DNA from: an uncultured Clostridia bacterium
Lineage (GTDB): Bacteria; Bacillota; Clostridia; Christensenellales; CAG-314
Direction of reading: 5' to 3'
Assembly (NCBI GenBank): GCA_947629985.1
Contig: CANRFV010000005.1
Location: 1-64,000, forward strand
DNA length: 64,000 bases
Shown: one piece after another, positions 35,294-63,838 of the stretch
Layout: the number at the start of each line of letters is the position of its first letter
Position numbering within the stretch: the stretch's first letter is position 1
Translations under genes and position numbers: made by a program
Notes under the pieces: model-generated
The model's database searches: none
What the model was told of the DNA's origin: nothing
The model's input: the letters and a program-made list of their open reading frames with translations, nothing else

Positions 35294-38200
35294 TCAATAT
35301 TTTGTCCACTCGCCGCGGTAACTTCTCAACAAATCGAGACATTGTTGCGGCGTTTTGCCGTCGGTGATATTTCCGCGACCGATCACGCCGGGAATATTGC
35401 ACAGCCAATGTCCGTTGTTGGTGGCAAATTTCACACCCGTAAGGGCGTTGCAACCGTCAAACGCGTAAGCGCCGATGCGCACCACGCTTGCGGGAATGTA
35501 TACCGACGTTACGTTGGCGCAACCCTTAAACGCTTCGATACATATCGTGCGGACGGTAGACTTGATGGTGATCGTACCCGTAGCCTTGGCTGCGTCTACT
35601 TTGATCAGATGGTTGTCTATGTACAACACGCCGTCGTCGCCCCAATTGCTCGCAGTATTGTAATACTTGCTGTTGGTAAACGCGTCCTTGCCGATGTAAG
35701 TTATTGCGTCGGGCAAGTTGACGGATGTAAGTTGATCGCAATCCGCAAAGGCGTCTTCGCCTATGTATGTTACCGTTTCGGGCAATCTTATGCCGGTTAT
35801 CGCCGTGCCCTTAAACGTGCCGGAAGGTATGCGCGTAATTTGCGTGTCGGAAAGGTCGATCATACCCGTGGCGCCGTCGATGTGCATAGAAGCGTTGTAG
35901 CACAGCGGGCTGGAATAGTCGTTTTCAAAACGGATATTCAACCAATCGTGCAAAGTGCCTACAAATTCCACGTTGGCAATGTTTTCGCATTCCAAAAACG
36001 CGTCCTTATCTATTACTTTAAGCCCTTTGTGCAACTTGACGGATACCAGATTCTTTATTTTCGCAAAGGCGTTTGCCGCTATCGTAACGGTGTCCTCGCG
36101 CACTTCCAACGACAAGTCCGTACCATCGCCCGCGCGCGCCTTTAACAGGTGTTTGCCCAGATAGATCATATTGCCCGACCAATTGGTTTCCTGCTCGATG
36201 TACGCGGTGCCTTCAAACGCTCTGCTGCCTATATCTTCAAGTTGGTTGGGAATGGTAATGTTGCGTAGCGCCGTGCACATTCCAAACGCGCTTGCGCCCA
36301 ATTGAGTAAGCGACGTAGGCGCTTCGAACGTGGTAAGCAACTTGCAACCCATAAATGCGGACATTCCGATGGTTTTGAGATGATTTTCGGCGCCTTCGAA
36401 GTGCAATTCCTGCAAGTCCGTGCAGAAGTAGAACGCATATTCTTCAATCGTTTCCACCGTGTCGGGAATCGATACGGTTTGAATGGTATGGTTGTTCATA
36501 AACGCCCACTTACTTATGCCGAGTACGGGCAATTCTTGCCCCGTGTATTTACCGTTATCGCCCAAAATCGGGTGCTGTGCGGGAATGACGATGTTTTTGG
36601 CGGAAAGTATGCGGTTGTCGTTTTCCACCAGACAGTGCGCGCCCAACACCTTGTAATTCAAGCCGTCGTAGCCGCACGAAGAACAAAGGTTGCTTTGCGA
36701 CCAATCGTGCGCGCCTTCGTCAATGGTTGCGCAGGTGTTGCACACGCTCTTGTGTCCGTTTTCGTTGATGTATTCCACTTTCCAACTGTGTCCCAACGCC
36801 TCGCCCGTAATTACGCGAACGCTGTCGCCGCATTCCGAGCAAGTTTTGGTGTCGTAGGGCTTGTCGGTGCAGGTTGCGGCTGTGGGAACAACGTCGTAGT
36901 TGCATTGTTGAATATCTTCGAAGCCGCACTTGCCGCATTTACGCATATGATTGCCGTCGCCCGTGGGCTTGTAAACGCCGTCGTTAAGCCAACTGTGTCC
37001 GGCGGATTGCGCGCCCGTACTCTGTTCGGAGTGCAGGCAGAATTGACAAACCTTGGTAACCGAACCCGCTTCCGTACAAGTGGGAGCCTTGCTCGATTCG
37101 ACAATGGTACATTCGGTTACGACTTCGTATTCGCAGCGCGAACACTTTTCGGTGTGTTGGTTCTTGCCATTGGAGTTTACTCCCGAAAATTCCGGCGCTT
37201 GCAAACTGTGTCCCAACGCGTTGCCTTCCGTTATACGGAGTACCAATCCGCAAACAGAACATTGGTAATTGTGTGTAAGCGGTTTGTCGCAAGTGGCCTT
37301 TTCGGGGGTATCCACCAATGTACAATTTTTGTAATCGGTGGTCAAACCGCACTTGGTGCACTTTTGTCTGTGTGTGCGGTGCGATTTGTCTTGTTCGTAT
37401 TCGTAAGTGTGTCCCGTTGCTTGTTCGGTTACCACTTCGTGTATACTGCGGCATTGTTCGCACTGAAAACGCTCATAGCCGGGCGTTGTGCAGGTAACTT
37501 CTTCTTTAGAAATGCTTTTAAGTTCGCAAGTATTGCGCTGGCGCGCTTCGGGAGCGTTGCAACGCGTGCAATCGCGGTAATGGGTGTGAGTGTGGCCGTC
37601 TGCCTTTTCGTCCACTATTTCCGAGATCCAACTGCCGTAAATGTGTCCCAACGCGGCGTCGCCTTCCACCTTGTTTACATGCCTGCAAACAATGCACTCG
37701 TACTCGGTGTAGCCCGCTTCGGTGCAGGTTGCGGAATGCGTTGTGCCGTTTTCACCGTAACTGCACAATTCCTTTTGCGTGTGGGACGCGTCGGTTTGGC
37801 AGGTGCGTTCGTGCCAACCGTTGCCCAGATCCTGCCAAGGACCCCAAACGTGATCTTTGGAAGGAATATCCTGATATTCCGCCGCTCCGCATACGGAACA
37901 ATTGCGAATGTTTTTGCCGTCGGAATCTTCCGTGGGTTCTTCAAACGGTTGCCATTCGCCCCAATTGTGTTGCGTTGCGGGAATCTCGCTCGAAGGAGTA
38001 AGCACCGTGTGGCATACCGAACACTCTACGCTTTCGGTTTTGCCGGGTTGGGTGCAGGTGGCGTTTACTTGCGGAATGGTTTGCGGTATGTGCGGCGTTT
38101 TGTCCACATTTACCTGACGGCCGGCGTTGCAAATGCTGCAAACTTGCTTTTCAATGCCTGAATGCGTGCAATCGGGCACGGTAATGTACGATTCGCGCGC

Positions 38201-39061
38201 CCACAGGTGCCCCGTGGCGGGCAAAGTAACGTCGTCTATCGCAACGCCGTTGGCGTCGTAATTTTTGCGGCATACCGAGCAAACTTTGTGTTCGCGCACG
38301 CCGTCCTTGTCGCAAGTGGGCAGTTGTTCGGGCACGGTAGCGCCGAAAACGTGCTGTCCGTTACCGGGAATTACCAACAATTCGCGGTCTACAAATTGTT
38401 TTACGCCGTCTGTTTCCACAAAACATTGATGGCAAACGGTACATTCGTAGTGCGCTTCCAGTCCGTCCGCGCAGGTAGGCTCGACTTTTGCCACAAGAGC
38501 GCCCAATTGGTGTTCCGCAAGAGCGGTATTGTCCGTTTGGGACGTACCGCACACATCACAGCGGCGTTCGCGTACGCCCTGCTCGGTGCAAGTGGCGGGT
38601 TTGGTCGTTGTCCAATCGCCCCAACTGTGCGCGATCATTTCCGCTTCGCGCGTTTCTTCTTCGCCGCACACGGTGCAAACGCGTTTGTCCGTGCCCGTGC
38701 GCACGCATGTGGGATCCTGAATGTTGCTCCATTCGCCCCAACTGTGCCCATTGGATACGAGCGTTTGGGTAACGCTGTCGTTGCATATCGAACACGTTAC
38801 GGTAACTTCGCCGTCCGTTGTACAGGTTACGGGAACGGTAACCTGCTCGGTATGACTGCCGTCGTGTCCGCTAAGTTGCTCTATCGTTTCGGTTACGACT
38901 TCGCCGCAACTGCATGTTCCGCGGCGTTCGCCTGCGTGAAAACACGTTGCGGGCGTAACGGTTTCCCATTCGAATTCGTGTTCGTGTTGGCAAGCGGTAA
39001 GCCCCAACAGCAAACAGATAACGGTAACCGCAGACAAAACCAACAATGCGATTTTTTTCAT
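35294..39061 (-). CDS. Giant Cys-repeat lipoprotein with BspA-type leucine-rich repeats
   Basis: A 1255-residue lipoprotein, lipobox L-T-A-C with Cys24. Residues about 25-795 hold around fifteen units of 35-60 residues, each with a lone Cys after Pro-x/Ala-Thr, a CxxC pair and GHxW (ATCT..GV.ERRCDVCGTSQTD...H.LG). Residues about 800-1240 are BspA/LRR_5-type leucine-rich repeats (ISKWAFMNN, IGMSAFMGC, VIDKDAFLEC, IGEDAFADC). BspA repeats occur in surface proteins that bind host or bacterial partners. No sorting signal is seen; the lipid holds the protein in place. The ATG has AGAGGAG upstream and a consensus promoter. Confidence 0.88.
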   Translation of the reverse strand: MKKIALLVLSAVTVICLLLGLTACQHEHEFEWETVTPATCFHAGERRGTCSCGEVVTETIEQLSGHDGSHTEQVTVPVTCTTDGEVTVTCSICNDSVTQTLVSNGHSWGEWSNIQDPTCVRTGTDKRVCTVCGEEETREAEMIAHSWGDWTTTKPATCTEQGVRERRCDVCGTSQTDNTALAEHQLGALVAKVEPTCADGLEAHYECTVCHQCFVETDGVKQFVDRELLVIPGNGQHVFGATVPEQLPTCDKDGVREHKVCSVCRKNYDANGVAIDDVTLPATGHLWARESYITVPDCTHSGIEKQVCSICNAGRQVNVDKTPHIPQTIPQVNATCTQPGKTESVECSVCHTVLTPSSEIPATQHNWGEWQPFEEPTEDSDGKNIRNCSVCGAAEYQDIPSKDHVWGPWQDLGNGWHERTCQTDASHTQKELCSYGENGTTHSATCTEAGYTEYECIVCRHVNKVEGDAALGHIYGSWISEIVDEKADGHTHTHYRDCTRCNAPEARQRNTCELKSISKEEVTCTTPGYERFQCEQCRSIHEVVTEQATGHTYEYEQDKSHRTHRQKCTKCGLTTDYKNCTLVDTPEKATCDKPLTHNYQCSVCGLVLRITEGNALGHSLQAPEFSGVNSNGKNQHTEKCSRCEYEVVTECTIVESSKAPTCTEAGSVTKVCQFCLHSEQSTGAQSAGHSWLNDGVYKPTGDGNHMRKCGKCGFEDIQQCNYDVVPTAATCTDKPYDTKTCSECGDSVRVITGEALGHSWKVEYINENGHKSVCNTCATIDEGAHDWSQSNLCSSCGYDGLNYKVLGAHCLVENDNRILSAKNIVIPAQHPILGDNGKYTGQELPVLGISKWAFMNNHTIQTVSIPDTVETIEEYAFYFCTDLQELHFEGAENHLKTIGMSAFMGCKLLTTFEAPTSLTQLGASAFGMCTALRNITIPNQLEDIGSRAFEGTAYIEQETNWSGNMIYLGKHLLKARAGDGTDLSLEVREDTVTIAANAFAKIKNLVSVKLHKGLKVIDKDAFLECENIANVEFVGTLHDWLNIRFENDYSSPLCYNASMHIDGATGMIDLSDTQITRIPSGTFKGTAITGIRLPETVTYIGEDAFADCDQLTSVNLPDAITYIGKDAFTNSKYYNTASNWGDDGVLYIDNHLIKVDAAKATGTITIKSTVRTICIEAFKGCANVTSVYIPASVVRIGAYAFDGCNALTGVKFATNNGHWLCNIPGVIGRGNITDGKTPQQCLDLLRSYRGEWTKY

Positions 39062-42250: not shown

Positions 42251-43495
42251 CTACCAATCCAGGCTGTTGTCGTTCAGCAAAAAGTCGTAAATATTCATTG
42301 TAACAATGCCGTTGTCGTCGCGCTTGGGCTTGATGTTGTCGCCCACAACTATAATGCGCTTAAAAAAGTCTTTTATGCTGCCAAGCGGGCGCTTTTCCTG
42401 CTGTTCCTTGTCCGCAGTGGGTATGCTGTACGCCGATTGCAAATAGTAGCGTTTGCTGCCCCTGTTGGCGACAAAGTCCACTTCGGCTGTGCGCTGTCCC
42501 GTGCTGCCGTCGCCGCGCGCGTCCACCACGCCCACATCCACCGAAAAACCGCGCCGCAACAGTTCCAGATACACAATATTTTCCATAATGTGCGGTTCTT
42601 CCTGCTGTCTGAAATTAAGCGCGGCATTGCGCAAGCCCAAATCGGTAAAGTAGTATTTGCTGGGCGACGACAAATATTTTTTGCCTTTTACGTCGTAGCG
42701 GCGAGATTTTTGTATCAAAAAAGCGTCCTGCATATACCCCAAATAGGCGGCAACTGTCTTGTCGGTCAAGCCTGCGTTAAGCACGCTTTTGAACGAATTG
42801 GACAGTTTTAGCGGGTTGGTAAGAGAGCCGATATCCGACGCAACAATTTCGGTAAGCACGCTAAGGTAGGGCGGATTGGCTATGTTGTAGCGCTCCACAA
42901 TGTCGTTTACGTACACATTGGCAAGTTGCCCTTTTAGATAACTTTCCTTGGCTTCGTCCGATTGCTGCAACAGCACCAGCGGCAACCCGCCGTAAGTGTA
43001 GTAATCGCGCCAGGCGTCTGCTTTGTCGCCGTTGTACACCGAACAAAACTCCGCAAAACTAAGCGGATACACGCGCACTTCGTCGCCGCGCCCGCGAAAT
43101 TCCGTTACAATGTCGCTGCTTAAAAAACGCGAATTGCTACCCGTAACGTAAATGTCCGCATTGGGCAGTTGCAACAAACCGTTAAGCACCCCAACAAAGT
43201 TGGTTACAAGTTGAATTTCGTCCAACAACACGTAGTAACAATCGTCGTCTGTCATTTTGCCGCGCACCCAATTGTACAACGCGTCGGGCTGTAACAACGC
43301 CGCATTGGTAATGCTGTCCAACGCCAATTGTATAATGTGATCGCTCCGCACACCGCTATCACGCAAATAATCGCAAAACAATTTGTTAAGCAAATACGAT
43401 TTGCCGCAACGCCGTATGCCCGTAATTACCTTTACCAGCCTGTTTTGACGGCGCGCAATAAGTTTGTTAAGATATAAATCGCGTTTGATTTCCAT
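42251..43495 (-). CDS. AAA ATPase with DUF4143 domain
   Basis: A 414-residue protein of the ATP-binding/DUF4143 group common in gut bacteria. Walker A is TGIRRCGKS, Walker B is YYVLLDEIQ, and the sensor region is VTGSNSRFLSSDI. The C-terminal DUF4143 part has a nuclease-like fold pattern (MENIVYLELLRRGF, EVDFVA, YYLQSAY), with the conserved Glu-x-Asp-Phe also found in restriction-like folds. The cellular role is unknown. The ATG has CGGAG upstream and a consensus promoter. Confidence 0.9.
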   Translation of the reverse strand: MEIKRDLYLNKLIARRQNRLVKVITGIRRCGKSYLLNKLFCDYLRDSGVRSDHIIQLALDSITNAALLQPDALYNWVRGKMTDDDCYYVLLDEIQLVTNFVGVLNGLLQLPNADIYVTGSNSRFLSSDIVTEFRGRGDEVRVYPLSFAEFCSVYNGDKADAWRDYYTYGGLPLVLLQQSDEAKESYLKGQLANVYVNDIVERYNIANPPYLSVLTEIVASDIGSLTNPLKLSNSFKSVLNAGLTDKTVAAYLGYMQDAFLIQKSRRYDVKGKKYLSSPSKYYFTDLGLRNAALNFRQQEEPHIMENIVYLELLRRGFSVDVGVVDARGDGSTGQRTAEVDFVANRGSKRYYLQSAYSIPTADKEQQEKRPLGSIKDFFKRIIVVGDNIKPKRDDNGIVTMNIYDFLLNDNSLDW

Positions 43496-43568: not shown

Positions 43569-43594
43569 TAGGTTTGCAAAAAAAGACAAAAAAT

Positions 43595-43893
43595 GCGAAG
43601 CGAAGCAAGGCGAAGGCTTCGCTTCGCAGTGATATTTTTCCGCCGTTGGCGGAAAAGTGATATTGCCTTACGGCAGTTATATTTTTCCGTCTGCGACGGA
43701 AAAGTGATATTGCCTTACGGCAGTTATATTTTTCCGCCGTTGGCGGAAAAGTGATATTGCCTTACGGCAGTGATATTTTTCCGCCGTTGGCGGAAAAGTG
43801 ATATTTTTTCGCCTGCGGCGAAAAAGTGAGATTTCGCTACGCGAAGTGATAGTATTCGCTGTCGCGAATAGTGAGATTGTTTTATTGCAATAA
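43595..43893. repeat. Array of about twelve short hairpins joined by AGTGATATT-type linkers
   Basis: Each unit of 22-30 bp is a perfect palindrome with a 3-4 nt loop: for example TTCCGCC-GTT-GGCGGAA (three times), TTCCGTC-TGC-GACGGAA, TGCC-TTAC-GGCA (three times), TTCGCC-TGC-GGCGAA, TTCGC-TAC-GCGAA and TTCGC-TGTC-GCGAA. The first unit has arms GCGAAGCGAAG. Stems differ between units, yet both arms always match each other. The linkers are nearly constant (AGTGATATT, AGTTATATT, AGTGAGATT, AGTGATAGT). The last unit runs into the truncated lipoprotein fragment. Confidence 0.85.
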
Positions 43894-45341
43894 GTCATAA
43901 TTATTCGGATAAAAACGGCGAAAAGCATGAGTGCGGGATTTGCAATTTCAGCGAACTTCACCAATGGAAAGTTGATCCCAGCGGCGACAAAAATCACGAC
44001 GAACACACGTATAAGTGCACGGTTGACGGTTGCACAGCCACCAAAACCGAACATCACGACCTTGTTGTAAAGGAAGGTGCAGGCAACACAGGTGCAGAAC
44101 ATACCATTTGGTGTAAACAATGTGAGTATTCGGAAACCGAACCGCATACTCCCACACCTGTTGTACTTACCGAAGGTTGGAATCCCGACACGCACGGTGT
44201 AAAATGCACAAAATGCGGAGTAACCTACACCACCGAAGAACACAAGTTTGACCAACCCGGCAACAAGTGTCTTTGCGGTTACACCCAAGAAGAAAAAGAA
44301 CCCGTTTGGGAATTGGTAACGTCCGCAAGCAAAGCCATTGCAGTCGGCGACAGAATTGTCATCGTAGCAAGCGGAGACACTAAGGCAATGTCTACAACAC
44401 AAAATAGTAACAACCGCGGAGAAACTACTATTACTAAAAACGCAGAAACCAAAACCGTAACGATTACAAAAACCGTTCAGGTAATAACAATTGAACAAGG
44501 TAACAAAGACGGCACATTGGCGTTCAAAGTAGATACAGGTTATTTGTATGCTGCAAGCGACGGTAGTAACCATCTTAAAACAGAGACTAGTCTTGACGAT
44601 AACGGTAACGGTTCTTGGAAAATCCAAGTTGACGCCGATGGTACCGCCACTGTAACAGCACAAGGAACAAATTCTCACAATTTGTTAAAGTATAATTCAG
44701 GCAGTGGTTTATTTAGTTGCTACACCGGTGGTCAGCAAGACATTCAAATATACAGATACACCGGTTCCGGCGAAATCGTATATCCCGAAGACCCCGTTGG
44801 CCCCGGCGGTGGCGGAGACTCCGGCGGTGGCGGTACAGGTGGTACCGCCGGCGCAAAATGGGTATTGCTAACCGATGTTACTCAACTTAATAACGGCGAC
44901 AAAATAATATTTGTCTCGCCAGACAAGGCAAAGGCTGCCGTAGCGACCCTTAACAGTGGCAGACTAACAAGCGTAGATTTGGCTGGTGCTTTCTCGGGTG
45001 ATGATATACTTGACAGTTTGCTAGACGCAAGGGTTGCACAATTTACAGCATCCACGAGCGACAAAGTTACTTGGGAATTTACATGTAGCGCAGGCAAATT
45101 GGGCGTTACAAGTGTTGATGACACTAAAAAAATTAGCTTTGCGTCAAGCGCAACAACCACTTGGACGTTGAGTGCAAGTACACAAAAAAAGGCAGACCAT
45201 CAAGTGCAAATAAAATCGACGAAAGAGAAGTCGTCGAGCACAGCAACCGCAGCAAACGTTTTGCAATACTCTTCTTCTTACTTTGCAAATTATAAAAATT
45301 CAACGGAAGACCCGCTTATCTATGTTTACAAGGCAGAGTAA
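43875..45341 (+). pseudogene. 5'-truncated Cys-repeat lipoprotein fragment, promoterless
   Basis: An open frame of about 488 codons without start codon, signal peptide, ribosome binding site or promoter. It opens abruptly in the last hairpin unit and reads SHNYSDKNGEKHECGICN, matching the SHNYAKKSGEESAKHVCAICG region of the 1532-residue protein at 45486-50084. It then has CxxC units (KCTVDGC, WCKQCEYSETEPH, VKCTKCGVTY, NKCLCGYT) and a module starting WELVTSASKAIAVGDRIVIVAS that is closely similar to WKLVTSDSTPIALGDRIVIVAS in the same protein, both ending IQIYRYTGSGEIV. A Gly-rich linker and a second related module follow, ending YVYKAE. It is convergent with its full-length relative. It could be a decayed gene or a silent cassette. 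Confidence 0.75.
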
Positions 45342-45485: not shown

Positions 45486-48400
45486 TTAATCGTCTACTTC
45501 AAAATATATTGTAATTTTATCAATATATCCTGTACCGGAACCATTTTTAAGTTCGAAGTATGTATAATTTGTTCCATCTTCGCAAGTTATCGTCTGCGTA
45601 TCTCCTTTACCACTAAACGAAACCGCCTTGCTGTTTCCTGTAGGACTAGATGACGTTCCAAAAGTAAGCGTTACCGCCCCGGGATCACCTTGAGCAACAC
45701 TAGGAGTTGCCAATTCTATTTTGACAATTCTTCCGGGAAATGCAGTAGTGTTGTTAATTATGCCAGCGTTCTTTTTCATTTGAATATATTGTGGTGATTT
45801 TGAATACGAAGAGTACATCGTTTGAATATATGAAAAAGTTACTGACTTTGTTTTAACAGAACTTGCAACACTCTTGTTTGAACTGCTTGAACCGTACGAA
45901 GAGGGAAGTCCCAAGCTTGTTGGTGTAAGTACTATTGTGTCTACAACTTTTTGTGCGGGTTCGGCTTGTCCGCAAACGCACTTGTTGCCGTCTTGGTCGT
46001 AGGTGTGGTCTACCAATTTGGTTTCGCCGCAGCCTTCGCATTTGACGGTGTGCTGAGTATCGTTCTTGGTGCCTGTTGCGTCATATACCCACTTGTGTTC
46101 GCCTTCGTCGCCGCAAATTGCGCATACGTGTTTAGCGCTTTCTTCGCCGCTCTTCTTAGCATAATTATGACTTATTTTAGTGCCTTTGAAGGTTACCTTG
46201 GTAAGTTTGTCGCAGTTGGAGCCCAACACTTTAATTGTGTAGTTGTCCGCACCTTCGGTACGTTGCTCTTTGGTAAATGTTACGGTTACTTCCGCGCCTG
46301 TGGGCGAAGTTTCACCTTTGAGCGTGTCAAGGTCAATTTCGACGCCTTTGTTGCCGGTGGCAAAGTCGGTCAATTCGTCTACGGTAACTGTTACGCCGGA
46401 GTATTTACTCCAATAGGTTGCGGACAAAGCGTATGCCGTTGCGGGAACAGCATTGAACGTTACGTTGGTAAGGGTAAGTTCGCCGCTGTAAGCCACCACT
46501 GCCGCGTCGCAACCGGCTTCTACGTTGGTTGCGTCCAGCGTTACGCCGTTAAGAGTAAGGTTGCCGTAGTTGTTTACAAGGCGTACAACACCTTTGCCGG
46601 ATTCCGCCGCAATTGTACCGCCCTTAATTTCCACTTCCGCGCCGGGCAAAACTTGCAACGCCTGAGACTCGGTGCCCGCACTGCCAACGGCAGCGTTTAC
46701 CGTGTAGGTAAATGTGCCAAGGTCAATGGTGATCTTGCCCGTGTGTTCCGTAAAGCGCAATCCCGCGCCGGTGTTGTTTGCCAACAAGGTGATAGTTTGC
46801 TCGCCGCTGAGCGTAAGAGCCTTGTTGAGAGCCGAAGCCAAATCGGTGAAATACTCTTCGCCTACTTGCGCGGCGTGTTGACTGTAACCGCATTTGCATT
46901 TATGGGTTGCGTCGAAGGTGTGGCCTTCGGGCTCGCCGCTAAGTCTGCCGCAATCGGAGCATTTCTTTTGGTGGGTTTTGTCGGTTTGTTCCCAAGCAGC
47001 GGTGTTGCACTGTTCCTCGCCGTCCTTGCCGCCGCAAGTTTCAAAGCGTACGCATTGTTTGTAGTGTTTGCCGTCGTCGGATTGTACCCAATCTTGACCT
47101 TCGAAGTCGTGCCCCAATTGGGGGATCTTCAATTGTTCGTCGGACTGCTCTACATACAACTCGCCTTGTTTAACAAACTTTTTGTTGCATACCGTGCAAG
47201 TATAGTGGGCTTTAACGCCGTCTTTTTCACATTCGGCAGGTAATTGCGCCACTTCTTCGCTGTATTTGTGTCCTGCTTTAAGTACGGTTGTAGATTGTTC
47301 AATTATATCGCCGCCTGTTGCCGCATTGAACAGTTTGCCGCAATTGTTGCACGACCAATATTGAATATTGCCGTCTTCCGTGCAGGTAGCCTCTTTAAGC
47401 GGGTGTTCGGTACGATTTGTGTGCTGACATACTTCGTAGTAGATTTTGATCGAGTACATATTTACTGTGTAGGTGGACGTGTTAGCAAAATAGAATTCTG
47501 TTGTGCCGTCGCCAAAGTCATATATGTACAATGTGCCTTGACCTGAACCTTTTGTCGCGGTTACCAACTTGGACGCATCTACCGAATATGCAGAATACAT
47601 CTTCATATTGTCATAAGTTCCGAATACATCGGCAATTATTGCGTACACTTTACCGAGAGTTTTGGACTTAATATAACTTGTGGATTTGCTAAAAGTAAAT
47701 TCGTTACTATACGAAGCGTTCTTGGCTACACCGCTCTTTTCCAACCCTGCAATACTGCTACCGATGTTGGTAGGTGTAATTTCGAGAACTTGTACGTTTT
47801 GGTGTTTGTCGCATTTGTCTGCGCAAGCGGGGTCTCCGCAAGCGGGATCCAAGCACTTTCCGTCGATCGGGCAAACATGTTGACAGTAATGTACACCTGC
47901 GGGATAAACAACTTCTACAAGAGTGGGATTGAATTTTGCTCCCGTGGGACTTGCACTTGCAGGAAGATACGAAATTTGATATGTGCCGTTAAACAGTTCC
48001 AAGAAACCGTGAACGATTACGGTTGCGCCGTCAAGAGCGCCTGCTTCGTTGGAGCGAATGTTGGTAACGGAAGCATCTACATTTACTTGGCAAGTAATCT
48101 TTGTGGAGCCGTCGCCCAACTTAAATTCCCATTGTCCGTAAGTGTTGCGGGTGGAACCTGCATTTACAACACCTTGTACATAGTATTGCTGTTTTTCGGC
48201 TGCGCCGACAACTTTGCCGGAACCTGCTTCGTTCATCAAAGCGATCGCTTCTTCGACGGTAAGCGGGTTTTCCTTAGTTTTACCTTTGTCGGGGTCAACA
48301 GCACTGTGTCCTGCGCACTTGGGTTGACATTTTGCGTTGTCGCAAGTCTCGTCTGTACACAAACCGCATTGCGGGCAAACATGTTGACAGAAATGTGCGT

Positions 48401-50084
48401 CTGCGGGCAAAACCACTTCTACAACGTCGGGGGTAAATTTGTCGCCCGTGGGACTTGCACTTGCAGGAAGATATGCAATCTTGTACTGTCCGTTAAACAG
48501 TTCCAAGAAACCGTGAATTATTACGGTTGCACCGTCAAGAGCGCCGTCGCTTTCGGGAAATTCAACGCTGACGGAAGAGTTAATCTTGGCTTGACAAGTT
48601 GCTTTTTCCGAGCCGGTGCCCAACGTAAACGTCCACTCGTGAAATTGAGTATCAACTGTAGAACCGCTTACAACACCTTTTACATAGTATTGTTGTTTTT
48701 CGGCTGCGCCGACAACAACGCCGGAACCTGCTTCTTTCATTAAAGCGATCGCTTCTTCGACAGTAAGCGGGTTATCCTGTGTTTTACCTTTGTCGTCTGC
48801 ACTTTCGTGGCCGGGGCACTTCTCTGCGCAAGCAGGATCATCGCAATCGGACGTACACTTGCCGCAAGTGGGACACTGATGTTGACATTCGTGTTCGCCG
48901 GGGATTACTATTTCGCCGGAGCCGGTGTATCTGTATATTTGAATGTCGTCTTGACCACTTTCATAACAATTAAATAAATGATTACTGCCGGTGGAATTGT
49001 ATCTTAACCAATTACGCGCATTGGTTCCTTGTGATTTTACAGTAGCAATACCGTCGGCGGAAACTTCAATTGTCCAAGAAGATTCGTCGTCAACTTGTTT
49101 TGCTGTTTTAAGCGTACTTTGAGTTGTACCTGCTCCGCGCAAATATTGTCCGGTACCTACCGCGAGAGCAAATGTGCCGTTTTTAGTTCCCGCTTCTATT
49201 GTTATTATTTGAACTTCACTCGTAATAACTATGGTTTGGGTTGCGGCGTCCCTAGTAATTGCAACGCCATCACGATTATTTGTTTTTTGTGTTGTACACA
49301 TTGCCATATCGGCTGTGCTTGCAACAATAACAATTCTGTCGCCAAGTGCAATGGGGGTACTATCGGACGTTACCAACTTCCAAACGGGTAGTTGCTCGCC
49401 CTTGTTGACGGAAGGCAGTTCGTTGCCGTCTGCATCGAAATACTTGCCGCAATTTTGGCATTGGAAGTATCCGACGTGTTGGTCGGTTTCTTCTACCCAA
49501 GGACCGAACACGTGCTGATCTGCCATGGGAGCAACCAACACTTGGTATGTTGCGCCGCAATCCTTGCAGGTATACACGCGTTGACCGTAATCGCCGCAGG
49601 TGGGAGCAATCGTCAATACGCCGTTATCGTAGTTGTGGCGCGCTACCAATTGCTCGGTGCGGGTTGCGCCGCATACCGTGCATTTGAAAGTGATTTCGCC
49701 GTCCTTACATTTGGGCTCGGTTGTAACCGTGCCGTTATCCCAAGTGTGAGCGGGAAGCATAGGGATCGCTTCCTGCGGGGGAATTACTTCGCCGCAGACC
49801 GAACACTTGAAACTTGACGTAAGACCTGCGTCCGCGCAGGTTGCGGGTTTGCCTTCGAGTGTTTGCAGCGAGTGCGGCAATTTGCCGATGGATTGAGTGA
49901 ACGTTTGACCGCATCTGCTACACGTGTACGTACGCTCGCCCTCGCTTGTGCAGGTTGGCTGTTTGGTTATTTCGCCCGGGGTGTACAGGTGGCCGTCCGC
50001 GCAGGGATCCTGGCAGGCGGACAATGACAAAACCAACAGCGAAACCATCAAAATCGCAAGCAAAATTTTGACTGATCTTTTCAT
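45486..50084 (-). CDS. Giant Cys-repeat lipoprotein with duplicated OB-fold-like modules, 1532 residues
   Basis: Lipobox L-S-A-C, Cys24, then CADGHLY and four CxxC units (to about residue 235). A beta module begins WKLVTSDSTPIALGDRIVIVAS (about 235-395). Two copies of a 130-residue module follow (about 432-565 and 600-730), each opening GKT..NPLTVEEAIALM and containing YYV.GVV and GAL/ALDGATVI.HGFLELFNG; this resembles OB-fold modules of DUF6359/YhcR type. Cys-rich links CQHVCPQCGLCTDETCD separate them. Then come further CxxC units, a beta-helix-like stretch (about 1110-1250), and a C-terminal beta module. Function unknown; a surface-exposed binding role is likely. The ATG follows AAAGGAG. 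Confidence 0.85.
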   Translation of the reverse strand: MKRSVKILLAILMVSLLVLSLSACQDPCADGHLYTPGEITKQPTCTSEGERTYTCSRCGQTFTQSIGKLPHSLQTLEGKPATCADAGLTSSFKCSVCGEVIPPQEAIPMLPAHTWDNGTVTTEPKCKDGEITFKCTVCGATRTEQLVARHNYDNGVLTIAPTCGDYGQRVYTCKDCGATYQVLVAPMADQHVFGPWVEETDQHVGYFQCQNCGKYFDADGNELPSVNKGEQLPVWKLVTSDSTPIALGDRIVIVASTADMAMCTTQKTNNRDGVAITRDAATQTIVITSEVQIITIEAGTKNGTFALAVGTGQYLRGAGTTQSTLKTAKQVDDESSWTIEVSADGIATVKSQGTNARNWLRYNSTGSNHLFNCYESGQDDIQIYRYTGSGEIVIPGEHECQHQCPTCGKCTSDCDDPACAEKCPGHESADDKGKTQDNPLTVEEAIALMKEAGSGVVVGAAEKQQYYVKGVVSGSTVDTQFHEWTFTLGTGSEKATCQAKINSSVSVEFPESDGALDGATVIIHGFLELFNGQYKIAYLPASASPTGDKFTPDVVEVVLPADAHFCQHVCPQCGLCTDETCDNAKCQPKCAGHSAVDPDKGKTKENPLTVEEAIALMNEAGSGKVVGAAEKQQYYVQGVVNAGSTRNTYGQWEFKLGDGSTKITCQVNVDASVTNIRSNEAGALDGATVIVHGFLELFNGTYQISYLPASASPTGAKFNPTLVEVVYPAGVHYCQHVCPIDGKCLDPACGDPACADKCDKHQNVQVLEITPTNIGSSIAGLEKSGVAKNASYSNEFTFSKSTSYIKSKTLGKVYAIIADVFGTYDNMKMYSAYSVDASKLVTATKGSGQGTLYIYDFGDGTTEFYFANTSTYTVNMYSIKIYYEVCQHTNRTEHPLKEATCTEDGNIQYWSCNNCGKLFNAATGGDIIEQSTTVLKAGHKYSEEVAQLPAECEKDGVKAHYTCTVCNKKFVKQGELYVEQSDEQLKIPQLGHDFEGQDWVQSDDGKHYKQCVRFETCGGKDGEEQCNTAAWEQTDKTHQKKCSDCGRLSGEPEGHTFDATHKCKCGYSQHAAQVGEEYFTDLASALNKALTLSGEQTITLLANNTGAGLRFTEHTGKITIDLGTFTYTVNAAVGSAGTESQALQVLPGAEVEIKGGTIAAESGKGVVRLVNNYGNLTLNGVTLDATNVEAGCDAAVVAYSGELTLTNVTFNAVPATAYALSATYWSKYSGVTVTVDELTDFATGNKGVEIDLDTLKGETSPTGAEVTVTFTKEQRTEGADNYTIKVLGSNCDKLTKVTFKGTKISHNYAKKSGEESAKHVCAICGDEGEHKWVYDATGTKNDTQHTVKCEGCGETKLVDHTYDQDGNKCVCGQAEPAQKVVDTIVLTPTSLGLPSSYGSSSSNKSVASSVKTKSVTFSYIQTMYSSYSKSPQYIQMKKNAGIINNTTAFPGRIVKIELATPSVAQGDPGAVTLTFGTSSSPTGNSKAVSFSGKGDTQTITCEDGTNYTYFELKNGSGTGYIDKITIYFEVDD

Positions 50085-62228: not shown

Positions 62229-62255
62229 CATTATTGCAAAAATACACGCAAAACA

Positions 62256-62690
62256 TTGCCGACAGGCAAATAGTCGCCTATCGGCGAGTGAGATTTTGCA
62301 GTAAAGCAAATAGTTGCCTTACTGCAAAGTGTTATTTCGCTACGCGAAGTGATAGTATTTGCTGACGCAAATAGTGCGACATTGCCCGTGGGCAAATATT
62401 TTTCCGTCTACGACGGAAAAGTGAGATTTACGTGCAAGCGCGTAAGTGAGATTGTTTGCTGCGCAAACAGTTGCGGCTTTTTTTATTTGAAACATTTTTA
62501 AGTAATAAAAAAATTACTGTCGAGAAGTACTTCCCGACAATAATAATTTTCAAATTATGTCAACCTTAACTTTGCCGTTAGGCAAAATAACACTTTTCCG
62601 CTGAAAGCGGAAAAATAACACTCGCCGTAGGCGAATAACACTTACGCGCTTGCGCGTAAATAACACTGTTCGCCTAAGCGAACACCACGC
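62256..62690. repeat. Hairpin array with two oppositely oriented halves
   Basis: The left half (62256-62477) has hairpins such as ATTGCC-GACA-GGCAAT-like, TCGCC-TATC-GGCGA, TTTCGC-TAC-GCGAA, ATTTGC-TGAC-GCAAAT, TTGCCC-GT-GGGCAA and TTCCGTC-TAC-GACGGAA, joined by AGTGAGATT, AGTGTTATT or AGTGATAGT. After an AT-rich centre with a TGTCG/CGACA hairpin (62518-62540), the right half (about 62572-62690) has TTTGCC-GTTA-GGCAAA, TTTCCGCT/AGCGGAAA, CGCC-GTA-GGCG, TACGCGC/GCGCGTA and GTTCGC/GCGAAC joined by AATAACACT, the reverse complement. Same family as the array at 43595-43893. Confidence 0.85.
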
Positions 62691-63000
62691 AAGCGGAAAC
62701 AACTCAAATTCCGTCAACAAGCGGCGACCCTAAACAAGCAACAAGCAGTACGACTAAACCCAACCTTGTAAAACCCGCCTTGGCGGGCAGTTTAACTAAA
62801 CACCGCAAACTACGGACCTGTGCCGAAGTTTGCGACCTAACGGGGGATGCCGGGGATGTTCACCCCGGCGAAAGTCGGAATAATGAAGCAACGGGCAGTT
62901 GCTTCCTTGTTAGTCCGACCGTGCGGACGCGTAAGCGCACGAAGTGCAAGGTTGCAAGGCGCAAGCCGCCGTCAACCAAGTCCGCACGCGCCTGGTCGGA
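62690..63000. repeat. Composite repeat (copy C) ending at the carbamoyltransferase-like stop codon
   Basis: It contains, inverted relative to element B, GGAAACAACTCAAATTCCG and AAACCCAACCTTGT, then the three-stem module (62803-62921), and ends CTGGTCGGA, 1-2 bp before the stop codon of the next gene. It shares the GGTCGG end with copies A and B but has no clear left end; there the hairpin array begins instead. Confidence 0.6.
62803..62921. repeat. Three-stem module, copy 2
   Basis: Partner of 51008-51129, in the same orientation: GCAAACT/AAGTTTGC, GCCGGGG/CCCCGGC with a shorter loop, and GAAGCAAC/GTTGCTTC, then CCTTGTTAGTCCGACCG. Confidence 0.7.
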
Positions 63001-63001
63001 A

Positions 63002-63838
63002 TCAGTTTTTGCGCACCAAATACAACACCGCCATTGCCACAGCCACGTAGCAACTTTGGCGCAGATTTTCCACGCTGTCGTTATAGGACGCGCGTACTCC
63101 GCCGTGCGCTACCGTTCGGCAACCCAACAACGGACAATTTACATGCGCCTTGTCCAACAATTCGTCGGGTATGCCCACTGCACTGCCGTAATACGACGCG
63201 CCGTCGCAACCGTTGTCAAGTCCCAAATCGATTACCGCGTCCGCGCCCGCAAATGCCGCAGTCGGATCGTCCAGCACAATGCCCGTGCGCGGCGTTTGAA
63301 TGTCGCACGACGGCAAGTACCACACAAGATCTGAACCGAACAAATGCAAACAGTAATTGAGTTCATCCATTACGTTGACGTCGCGATTGCCCACAACCGA
63401 CACGTTGAGATTTTGCAAACCGTCAAGTTTGATATTGAGCGTCATAATGTCGGCAAGAGCGGTAATCGGGTCGCTGTCGCTTGTGCCGCCGTTTACCGTT
63501 GCGCACCGCATAAGCGCGGCAACGCGTTTTATTTCGTTAAGATCCGACATTTGCGCCACAACGGTGTTTACGCCCATACTGTCCAGCGCAAGGCAACTGT
63601 CCGCCTTGTTTTCCGCGCCGTACACGGGGCAAAACGCGCCCGACATATACGAAGTTGCCAAACCGAACGCCGTGCTTGACAAACAGCAATTTGTCCACAC
63701 GCCGCCCACGACGCTGCCTATCAGTTGCGGTCCCTTTTTGCTTCCCGTTGTGTAAATGCGCCGCATTTGCGCGGCAATTTGCAATATATTTGTTATATCT
63801 TTTTTGTCAAGTTCATGTAACGATAACAAATTTTTCAT
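63002..63838 (-). CDS. Aspartate/ornithine carbamoyltransferase-fold protein lacking catalytic motifs
   Basis: A 278-residue protein aligned by eye over its whole length with aspartate carbamoyltransferase (SLHELDKKDITNILQIA at the start; NLNVSVVG before the second domain; ending VAVAMAVLYLV). The residues that bind carbamoyl phosphate are gone: the STRTR loop is replaced by CCLSS (residues 51-55), the HPTQ motif by DPIT (123-126), and the late HPLPR motif is not visible. It is about 30 residues short. It follows the rluA-type gene by 1 bp, where Firmicutes often have rluA-pyrR-pyrB. It is probably a non-catalytic relative rather than a working PyrB. Confidence 0.75.
   Translation of the reverse strand: MKNLLSLHELDKKDITNILQIAAQMRRIYTTGSKKGPQLIGSVVGGVWTNCCLSSTAFGLATSYMSGAFCPVYGAENKADSCLALDSMGVNTVVAQMSDLNEIKRVAALMRCATVNGGTSDSDPITALADIMTLNIKLDGLQNLNVSVVGNRDVNVMDELNYCLHLFGSDLVWYLPSCDIQTPRTGIVLDDPTAAFAGADAVIDLGLDNGCDGASYYGSAVGIPDELLDKAHVNCPLLGCRTVAHGGVRASYNDSVENLRQSCYVAVAMAVLYLVRKN

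Follow-up and report, generated by a model that had tools for sequence, protein, structure and literature searches.

Hairpin arrays related to the Gut-1 RNA family as a possible module of mobile elements in uncultured Clostridia

Several described systems resemble the hairpin array reported here. The REP elements of one genome share their stems; MITEs and mobile insertion cassettes are small, with inverted ends and no transposase of their own, and some carry passenger genes; integron gene cassettes are small and mobile, carry passenger genes of many sorts, and have a structured site of a single-strand type. PMC3733652 names GTAG- and CGTC-type REP tags. The array also matches the Gut-1 RNA (RF01706), which is graded "certainly" an RNA in a table of Weinberg et al. 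2010 (PMC2864571); the description accompanying that grade places it in the human gut only and in environmental sequences only, with no function given. Beyond Gut-1, no descriptions of such arrays were found in the open-licence papers searched.

The array lies in a 64,000-nucleotide stretch of DNA (the window) from an uncultured Clostridia bacterium and occupies positions 43594-43893, where 12 non-overlapping perfect hairpins with stems of at least 4 bp pair 172 of 305 bases. Shuffled sequence (n=200) gives a mean of 43 paired bases and a maximum of 84, and the 204 pieces of 305 bp that tile the window outside this array and a second element described below have a median of 58 and a maximum of 106. 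This bears out a sequence-only reading of the locus, which had counted about twelve perfect hairpins. The linker that it called constant is so in the main: AGTGATATT accounts for 6 of the 11 linkers read by eye, the rest being the close variants AGTTATATT (twice), AGTGAGATT (twice), and AGTGATAGT (once). Eight distinct stems are found among the 12 hairpins. A 47-bp tandem repeat of 3.8 copies spans 43626-43805, and this portion of the array can be put down to straightforward duplication; the simple tandem duplication that the same reading had named as evidence against its interpretation is thus real for part of the array, and relatives carry compensated stem changes, as described below. The features at and around the array are as follows.

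42251-43495, minus strand: ATPase-like gene (named by eye; from the open reading frame list)
43594-43628, plus strand: outermost hairpin, with a 13-bp stem and a 9-nt loop (hairpin scan)
43629-43881, plus strand: array of ten hairpins joined by AGTGATATT and variants (hairpin scan and sequence), with stems TTTTCCGCC, TGCC, TTTTCCGTC, TTTTTCGCC, TTCGC, and TATTCGC
43768-43857, plus strand: match to the Rfam Gut-1 RNA (RF01706) at 50.9 bits, against a gathering score of 50
43882-43893, plus strand: last palindrome, TTATTGCAATAA, degenerate (hairpin scan and by eye)
43875-45341, plus strand: lipoprotein-like gene (identity by eye), with the listed open reading frame at 44313-45341 and the frame open from 43875

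The linkers read on the plus strand, so the AATATCAC strand of this copy is the minus strand, and additional overlapping Gut-1 matches are under the cut-off. The array sits between the 5' sides of the ATPase-like gene and the lipoprotein-like gene, which diverge. The frame at 43875-45341 lacks a start codon upstream of 44313, so the gene directly next to this copy has lost its 5' end. Long lipoprotein-like genes with many CxxC repeats lie at 35294-39061 and at 45486-50084 (minus strand), and the truncated gene, which starts at the array, appears by eye to be a relative of these.

The host genome (2.37 Mb in 157 contigs) contains 54 BLAST matches to the array, from which 26 loci were fetched in addition to the window array. 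The usual layout, by eye, is a plus-strand array, a core of ∼100 bp with a terminator-like hairpin, and a second, reversed array. Both the core and the second array are absent from the window copy at 43594-43893, and where that copy has TTATTGCAATAA, most others have a core-proximal hairpin of the form GTTTGC-TGC-GCAAAC or similar (by eye). None of the host copies matches the outermost hairpin, all BLAST matches starting at window position 43626 or later. Sequence comparison within the window reveals one full-size copy (L197), organized as follows.

62252-63004, no strand assigned: second, full-size copy of the host element
about 62255-62469, plus strand: first array (by eye)
about 62470-62567: core with terminator-like hairpin (by eye)
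about 62568-62690, minus strand: second array (by eye)

Past its minus-strand array, L197 has a further repeat that continues to the fixed end (..GGTCGGA), which by eye adjoins the stop codon of the following gene. The host arrays occupy gaps between longer flanking open frames, with shorter frames overlapping them treated as spurious, and no rule was found for the orientation of the flanking genes. A CCGACC (or CCGATC) motif is near an outer boundary in 19 of the 26 loci, often just after a stop codon; it is at both boundaries in one of these, and the array end is otherwise variable. The hairpins are a limited set of words re-used in varying order between loci (43 distinct inserts among 115), and stem changes inside the host look mostly like swaps of these ready-made words.

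A genome-collection scan with a three-linker pattern and free inserts yields at least 117 stretches, and among the matches listed, 104 of 117 are by title Clostridia of some kind, mostly animal-gut MAGs, and part of the remainder are not true arrays. The similar arrays in related genomes, for which the sequence-only reading had proposed a search, are thus present, with linkers kept and stems different. Six of the 12 matches that were inspected (L077, L090, L129, L103, L134, and L111) look like other or coding repeats and were rejected as arrays. Matches in L056, L149, and L159 are in records named Akkermansia, possibly reflecting transfer or mis-binned contigs; L056 has three Gut-1 matches above the cut-off.

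Gut-1 itself has 31 matches in the host genome at an E value of 0.001, two of them above the cut-off. A search with stricter filters of 151 genomes, made up of the host and 150 relatives, finds a match in 36 and one above the cut-off in 23; the cut-off is also exceeded in 9 of 16 named loci tested. These include L060, from a goat colon MAG, and L087, from a roe deer rectum MAG, so the restriction of Gut-1 to the human gut does not hold. The Rfam match and the dispersed, two-armed, mobile-element setting of the arrays are beyond what a single window could show.

Comparison of all loci identified a group of 18 homologous loci in MAGs, family A, with elements of ∼350 bp that have inverted ends and a body made up of arrays. 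The ends, GCGTGATACTCTTAACGGAG.. and ..CTCCGATAAGGACATCAC, are imperfect inverted repeats, and members L065 and L087 match Gut-1 above the cut-off, which ties family A to the window array. Among 14 distinct copies having both ends, 12 have complementary host flanks (at least 9 bp perfect), against a null that is inflated because its pool held both orientations of the same copies. The flanks are mostly an A run at left and a T run at right, and in L087 the perfect run consists of A/T only; the complementarity of the flanks together with these runs places the element in an intrinsic-terminator loop. Inspection by eye showed no target-site duplication. Family A-type ends are present in 46 of 196 genomes (G155 and relatives), and a reversed control pattern has no matches. 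In L249 and L259, family A-like ends surround a different array, with GTTATG-type linkers instead of GTGATATT (by eye).

Pairing is kept while the stems change. In 20 loci of other genomes, the linkers stay of the GTGATATT or GTGAAAT types and the stems differ strongly, and 179 distinct perfect 5' arms are found over all loci. The changing stems described by the sequence-only reading are therefore a property that holds across loci, whereas within one genome they are a limited set. Inserts between neighbouring linkers have a perfect stem of 5 to 7 bp in 447 of 762 cases; perfect stems of only 1 to 2 bp predominate in shuffled (612/762) and arm-swapped (526/757) controls. This comparison covers 163 of the 171 loci, L001-L008 being omitted, and false matches from other bacteria stayed in it as well as in the arm count and the mispair scan discussed below.

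An alignment of 18 of the 20 family A copies, from 13 MAGs by our own count, excludes L083 and L121, in which one hairpin is replaced by a longer one. In it, 95.4% of 540 cells are paired, compared with 33 to 41% when partners are slid, and 31 cells have changes on both sides, compared with 12.4 ± 3.0 in shuffles (0/500). G-U pairs occur in five cells. Two of the five measures are no higher than in shuffles, namely, pairs changed on both sides (5 versus 4.1) and further pair types (12 versus 11.4). Arms that stay matched as stems change between copies and species imply that the pairing is selected or copied, as the sequence-only reading had argued, and the compensatory changes that it had suggested looking for are found across these copies.

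Some elements carry genes. Cassettes of ∼0.8 to 1.5 kb with the same or related ends are located in terminator loops, some with arrays as their front part, and each end-bounded cassette that was read stands singly in its loop. Eight have both flanks and open frames (L292, L294, L300, L301, L306, L310, L316, and L330). By Pfam, the L292 cassette codes for a GNAT protein, that of L316 for a nucleotidyltransferase and a DUF559 protein, and that of L294 for an AAA/kinase domain, with a frame that resembles the L316 DUF559 protein by eye; the L330 element has a RAYT-like gene (NF047646) inside its ends. Both hairpin arrays precede the cargo gene in L301, L306, and L310, and a promoter-like sequence (TATAAT or similar) is present by eye between the arrays and the gene, so the cassette may have a promoter of its own, downstream of the arrays. 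In the first cassette set of 20 loci, the sole partners in L295 are of 9 bp, lie across unrelated genes, and were attributed to chance, and no flank partners were found in L293, L296, L297, L298, and L304; in the second set of 30 loci, most are without a left partner and many are at contig ends.

One species has the ∼1.0-kb L306 cassette in the terminator of a tpiA-like gene (named by eye), a site with a match in 52 of the 57 genomes searched. Of 29 relatives fetched, 20 have a plain compact stem-loop behind this gene, 8 have neither, and 1 (L383) has an end hairpin, all by eye. The L383 structure is a terminator-like stem-loop, the upper part of which resembles only the family A end hairpin, with no interior (by eye). 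The empty sites belong to other species with other stem sequences, not to strains of the same species.

That the arrays belong to dispersed elements of a mobile type is well supported for family A. Mobility of the host's own family, which may be supposed from its dispersal and one syntenic site, is less directly supported. At that site (L178), between convergent genes, the array is absent from all 12 congeners inspected of the 24 found, and several of these have an ordinary terminator there (by eye); for a second locus, in G152, no relative was comparable on both sides for an occupied and an empty site. Copies of the host family, unlike those of family A, lie outside terminator loops, and many are fixed at one end and variable at the other; the two families may therefore move differently.

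We propose, with about an even chance of being correct, that the array belongs, as a module, to non-autonomous mobile elements found in uncultured Clostridia and acts as folded single-stranded DNA. A complete element has two hairpin arrays facing across a core; the family A form adds imperfect inverted ends, a position in an intrinsic-terminator loop, and an optional gene behind the arrays. The window copy, truncated and with a single arm, belongs to a different, host-specific family, and Gut-1 is matched in both. When single-stranded, as lagging-strand template or transposition intermediate, the AATATCAC strand would fold into a string of short mini-hairpins of exceptional stability, and the constant linkers at the hairpin feet could be the recognition feature for a mobilising enzyme or host factor, which would leave the stems free to change provided that they pair.

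An RNA function is a serious rival, although we regard it as rather unlikely: the transcribed array, as Gut-1 RNA or as an mRNA 3' end or operon spacer, would stabilise, insulate, or terminate transcripts, with GUGAUAUU linkers bound by an RNA-binding protein. Rfam models the family as RNA, in line with the table grade in Weinberg et al. 2010 (PMC2864571), arrays begin at stop codons in L035, L036, L037, and L050 (by eye), the L041 array lies between pgk-like and tpiA-like genes (by eye), and the compensated stem changes of family A are as expected of a structured transcript. The sequence-only reading had allowed for either a transcript or a DNA structure, and DNA fits the mispairs and loops better. 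Folded units in chains of at least 4 linkers are perfect in 489 of 530 cases, and among 3,342 pairs the array stems have 9 G-T, 20 A-C, and 23 other mispairs, whereas 235 terminator-like hairpins in loci L035-L171, scanned with a slightly different script, have 48 G-T, 25 A-C, and 19 others in 2,742 pairs, a G-T excess expected of RNA helices. The difference has a p value of 0.0019, and of 0.018 on distinct units in a rerun of the mispair and loop scans without nine loci of other bacteria (L111 not among them), four of which had contributed units; the A-C excess in array stems alone is not significant (p = 0.06).

The loops follow a rule as well. A loop of 3 or 4 is present in 274 distinct hairpins; the closing pair is C-G in 243 of them and the loop is of the form T..C in 160. 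Read on the complementary AATATCAC strand, these become c(GNA)g and c(GNNA)g loops. Loop types of the terminator hairpins are mixed, and the rule is weaker in the host genome alone (closing C-G in 24/38, T..C in 25/38). RNA GNRA loops require R at the third place, and yet R and Y are equal (42:42) at this place in the GNNA loops of the favoured strand, which is moreover the opposite of the strand modelled in Rfam. GNNA loops are stable in DNA. Those of the GNA type are named in PMC6479982, which cites Yoshizawa 1997 and Hirao 1994, as giving DNA mini-hairpins of very high stability. Folding energies favour the AATATCAC strand by 153 to 38 (188 equal) with RNA parameters and by 160 to 24 (195 equal) with DNA parameters, with no clear strand preference among terminators; as both parameter sets agree, this supports strandedness and not DNA over RNA. 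In a two-armed element, each strand has one arm of each type, and so only half of its hairpins have the favoured loops. The lack of an orientation rule for neighbouring genes in the host also speaks against a transcript, and we infer that folded single-stranded DNA best accounts for how few G-U pairs there are and for the rule that the loops follow. An improbable alternative is that the arrays are a mutational by-product in which template switching makes palindromes and keeps them perfect, and slippage and recombination multiply the units, with no selection; the 47-bp tandem duplication, the stem perfection with few wobble pairs, and the re-use of ready-made words are all consistent with such a process, but the linkers and the loop rule hold across many genomes, and family A has a two-armed layout with defined ends.

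A reading of the arrays as REP/REPIN/BIME-type elements mobilised by a REP-associated tyrosine transposase (RAYT) appears more doubtful still. Hairpins with a constant foot sequence, in inverted pairs, intergenic and dispersed, are what such elements would show, and the RAYT-like protein coded within the end-bounded L330 element, which has no Pfam match and matches NF047646 with an E value of 1.5e-11 (below its cut-off), has relatives in 32 of 46 genomes with family A-type ends compared with 33 of 150 without (p = 6.5e-9). Stem sequences, however, are not conserved, and the end motif is near only 3 of 12 fetched RAYT loci, such that RAYT may be cargo and the L330 protein may be a passenger or a mover. 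Y1_Tnp was rejected as a required partner, being equally common in genomes with arrays (13/36) and without (42/115) among the host and its 150 relatives. In the same genomes, NF047646 matches at E < 1e-10 occur in 7 of 36 with arrays and 8 of 115 without, a weak association. The genome lists for these association counts were compared by hand. At L041 (G133:C35), the array of which fills the gap between the pgk-like and tpiA-like genes, a RAYT-like gene is directly behind tpiA.

Other than the RAYT-like gene of L330, the copies read contained no parent transposase with family A ends, and a search of viral contigs for an autonomous copy had 0 matches. A DUF559 nuclease was also considered as mover and rejected: at E < 1e-15 it is enriched (13/36 array genomes versus 13/115 others), yet it is absent from many array-rich genomes, and no array chain is beside DUF559 in three loci inspected. 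DUF559 nuclease genes in L342 and L343 are within another palindromic repeat, of the CTCCCTCTGACGAGGGAG and GGGAGAGCTGTCGG types.

Returning to the mobile single-stranded DNA module, we tentatively extend it, as a possibility that we consider somewhat short of probable, to a system of mobile gene cassettes in gut Clostridia that has so far gone unrecognised. Its cassettes, small and mostly lacking their own transposase, would enter intrinsic-terminator loops, the array would be a recognition module of very stable DNA mini-hairpins read as single-stranded DNA, and the Gut-1 "RNA" would be a piece of it. If so, an unexplained RNA family becomes part of a DNA mobility system, the arrays provide a natural case of DNA hairpins that are free in sequence and constrained in fold, and a route for gene entry into terminators is revealed in animal-gut bacteria.

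Among known systems, CRISPR arrays can be set aside, as they have constant repeats with unique spacers, and the inserts here are palindromes shared by many loci; the description of the locus as the reverse of a CRISPR array is an analogy only. REP, REPIN, and BIME elements with RAYT (PMC8266576, PMC3116915, and PMC3733652) are likewise dispersed extragenic hairpins with a short constant foot tag and are often in inverted pairs. They differ in having a conserved palindrome per genome, where the arrays have variable stems and constant linkers (the host's 43 distinct inserts), in a GTAG- or CGTC-type tag where the array foot is AGTGATATT and variants, and in that arrays and RAYT show little association among the relatives of the host (none for Y1_Tnp, weak for NF047646). 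Family A shares with MITEs and mobile insertion cassettes (PMC6542083 and PMC4133298) a small size, inverted ends, and some passenger genes, and its dispersal and its occupied and unoccupied sites (unoccupied in other species only) are those of a MITE. It differs in its location in terminator loops and its long internal hairpin arrays, with neither parent insertion sequence nor target duplication seen, and the host family, the window copy included, lacks the two defined inverted ends of a MITE. Integron cassettes are similar in being small and mobile, with diverse passengers and a structured single-strand-type site, but are in a row at one attachment site, unlike the single cassettes in terminator loops. 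Closest is the Gut-1 RNA, which belongs to the same sequence family, with hairpins joined by GUGAAAU-type linkers; it is catalogued as a noncoding RNA, whereas the elements described here, of which it forms a fragment, are longer and two-armed, are also present in MAGs from non-human animals, and have DNA-type stem and loop features on the opposite strand.
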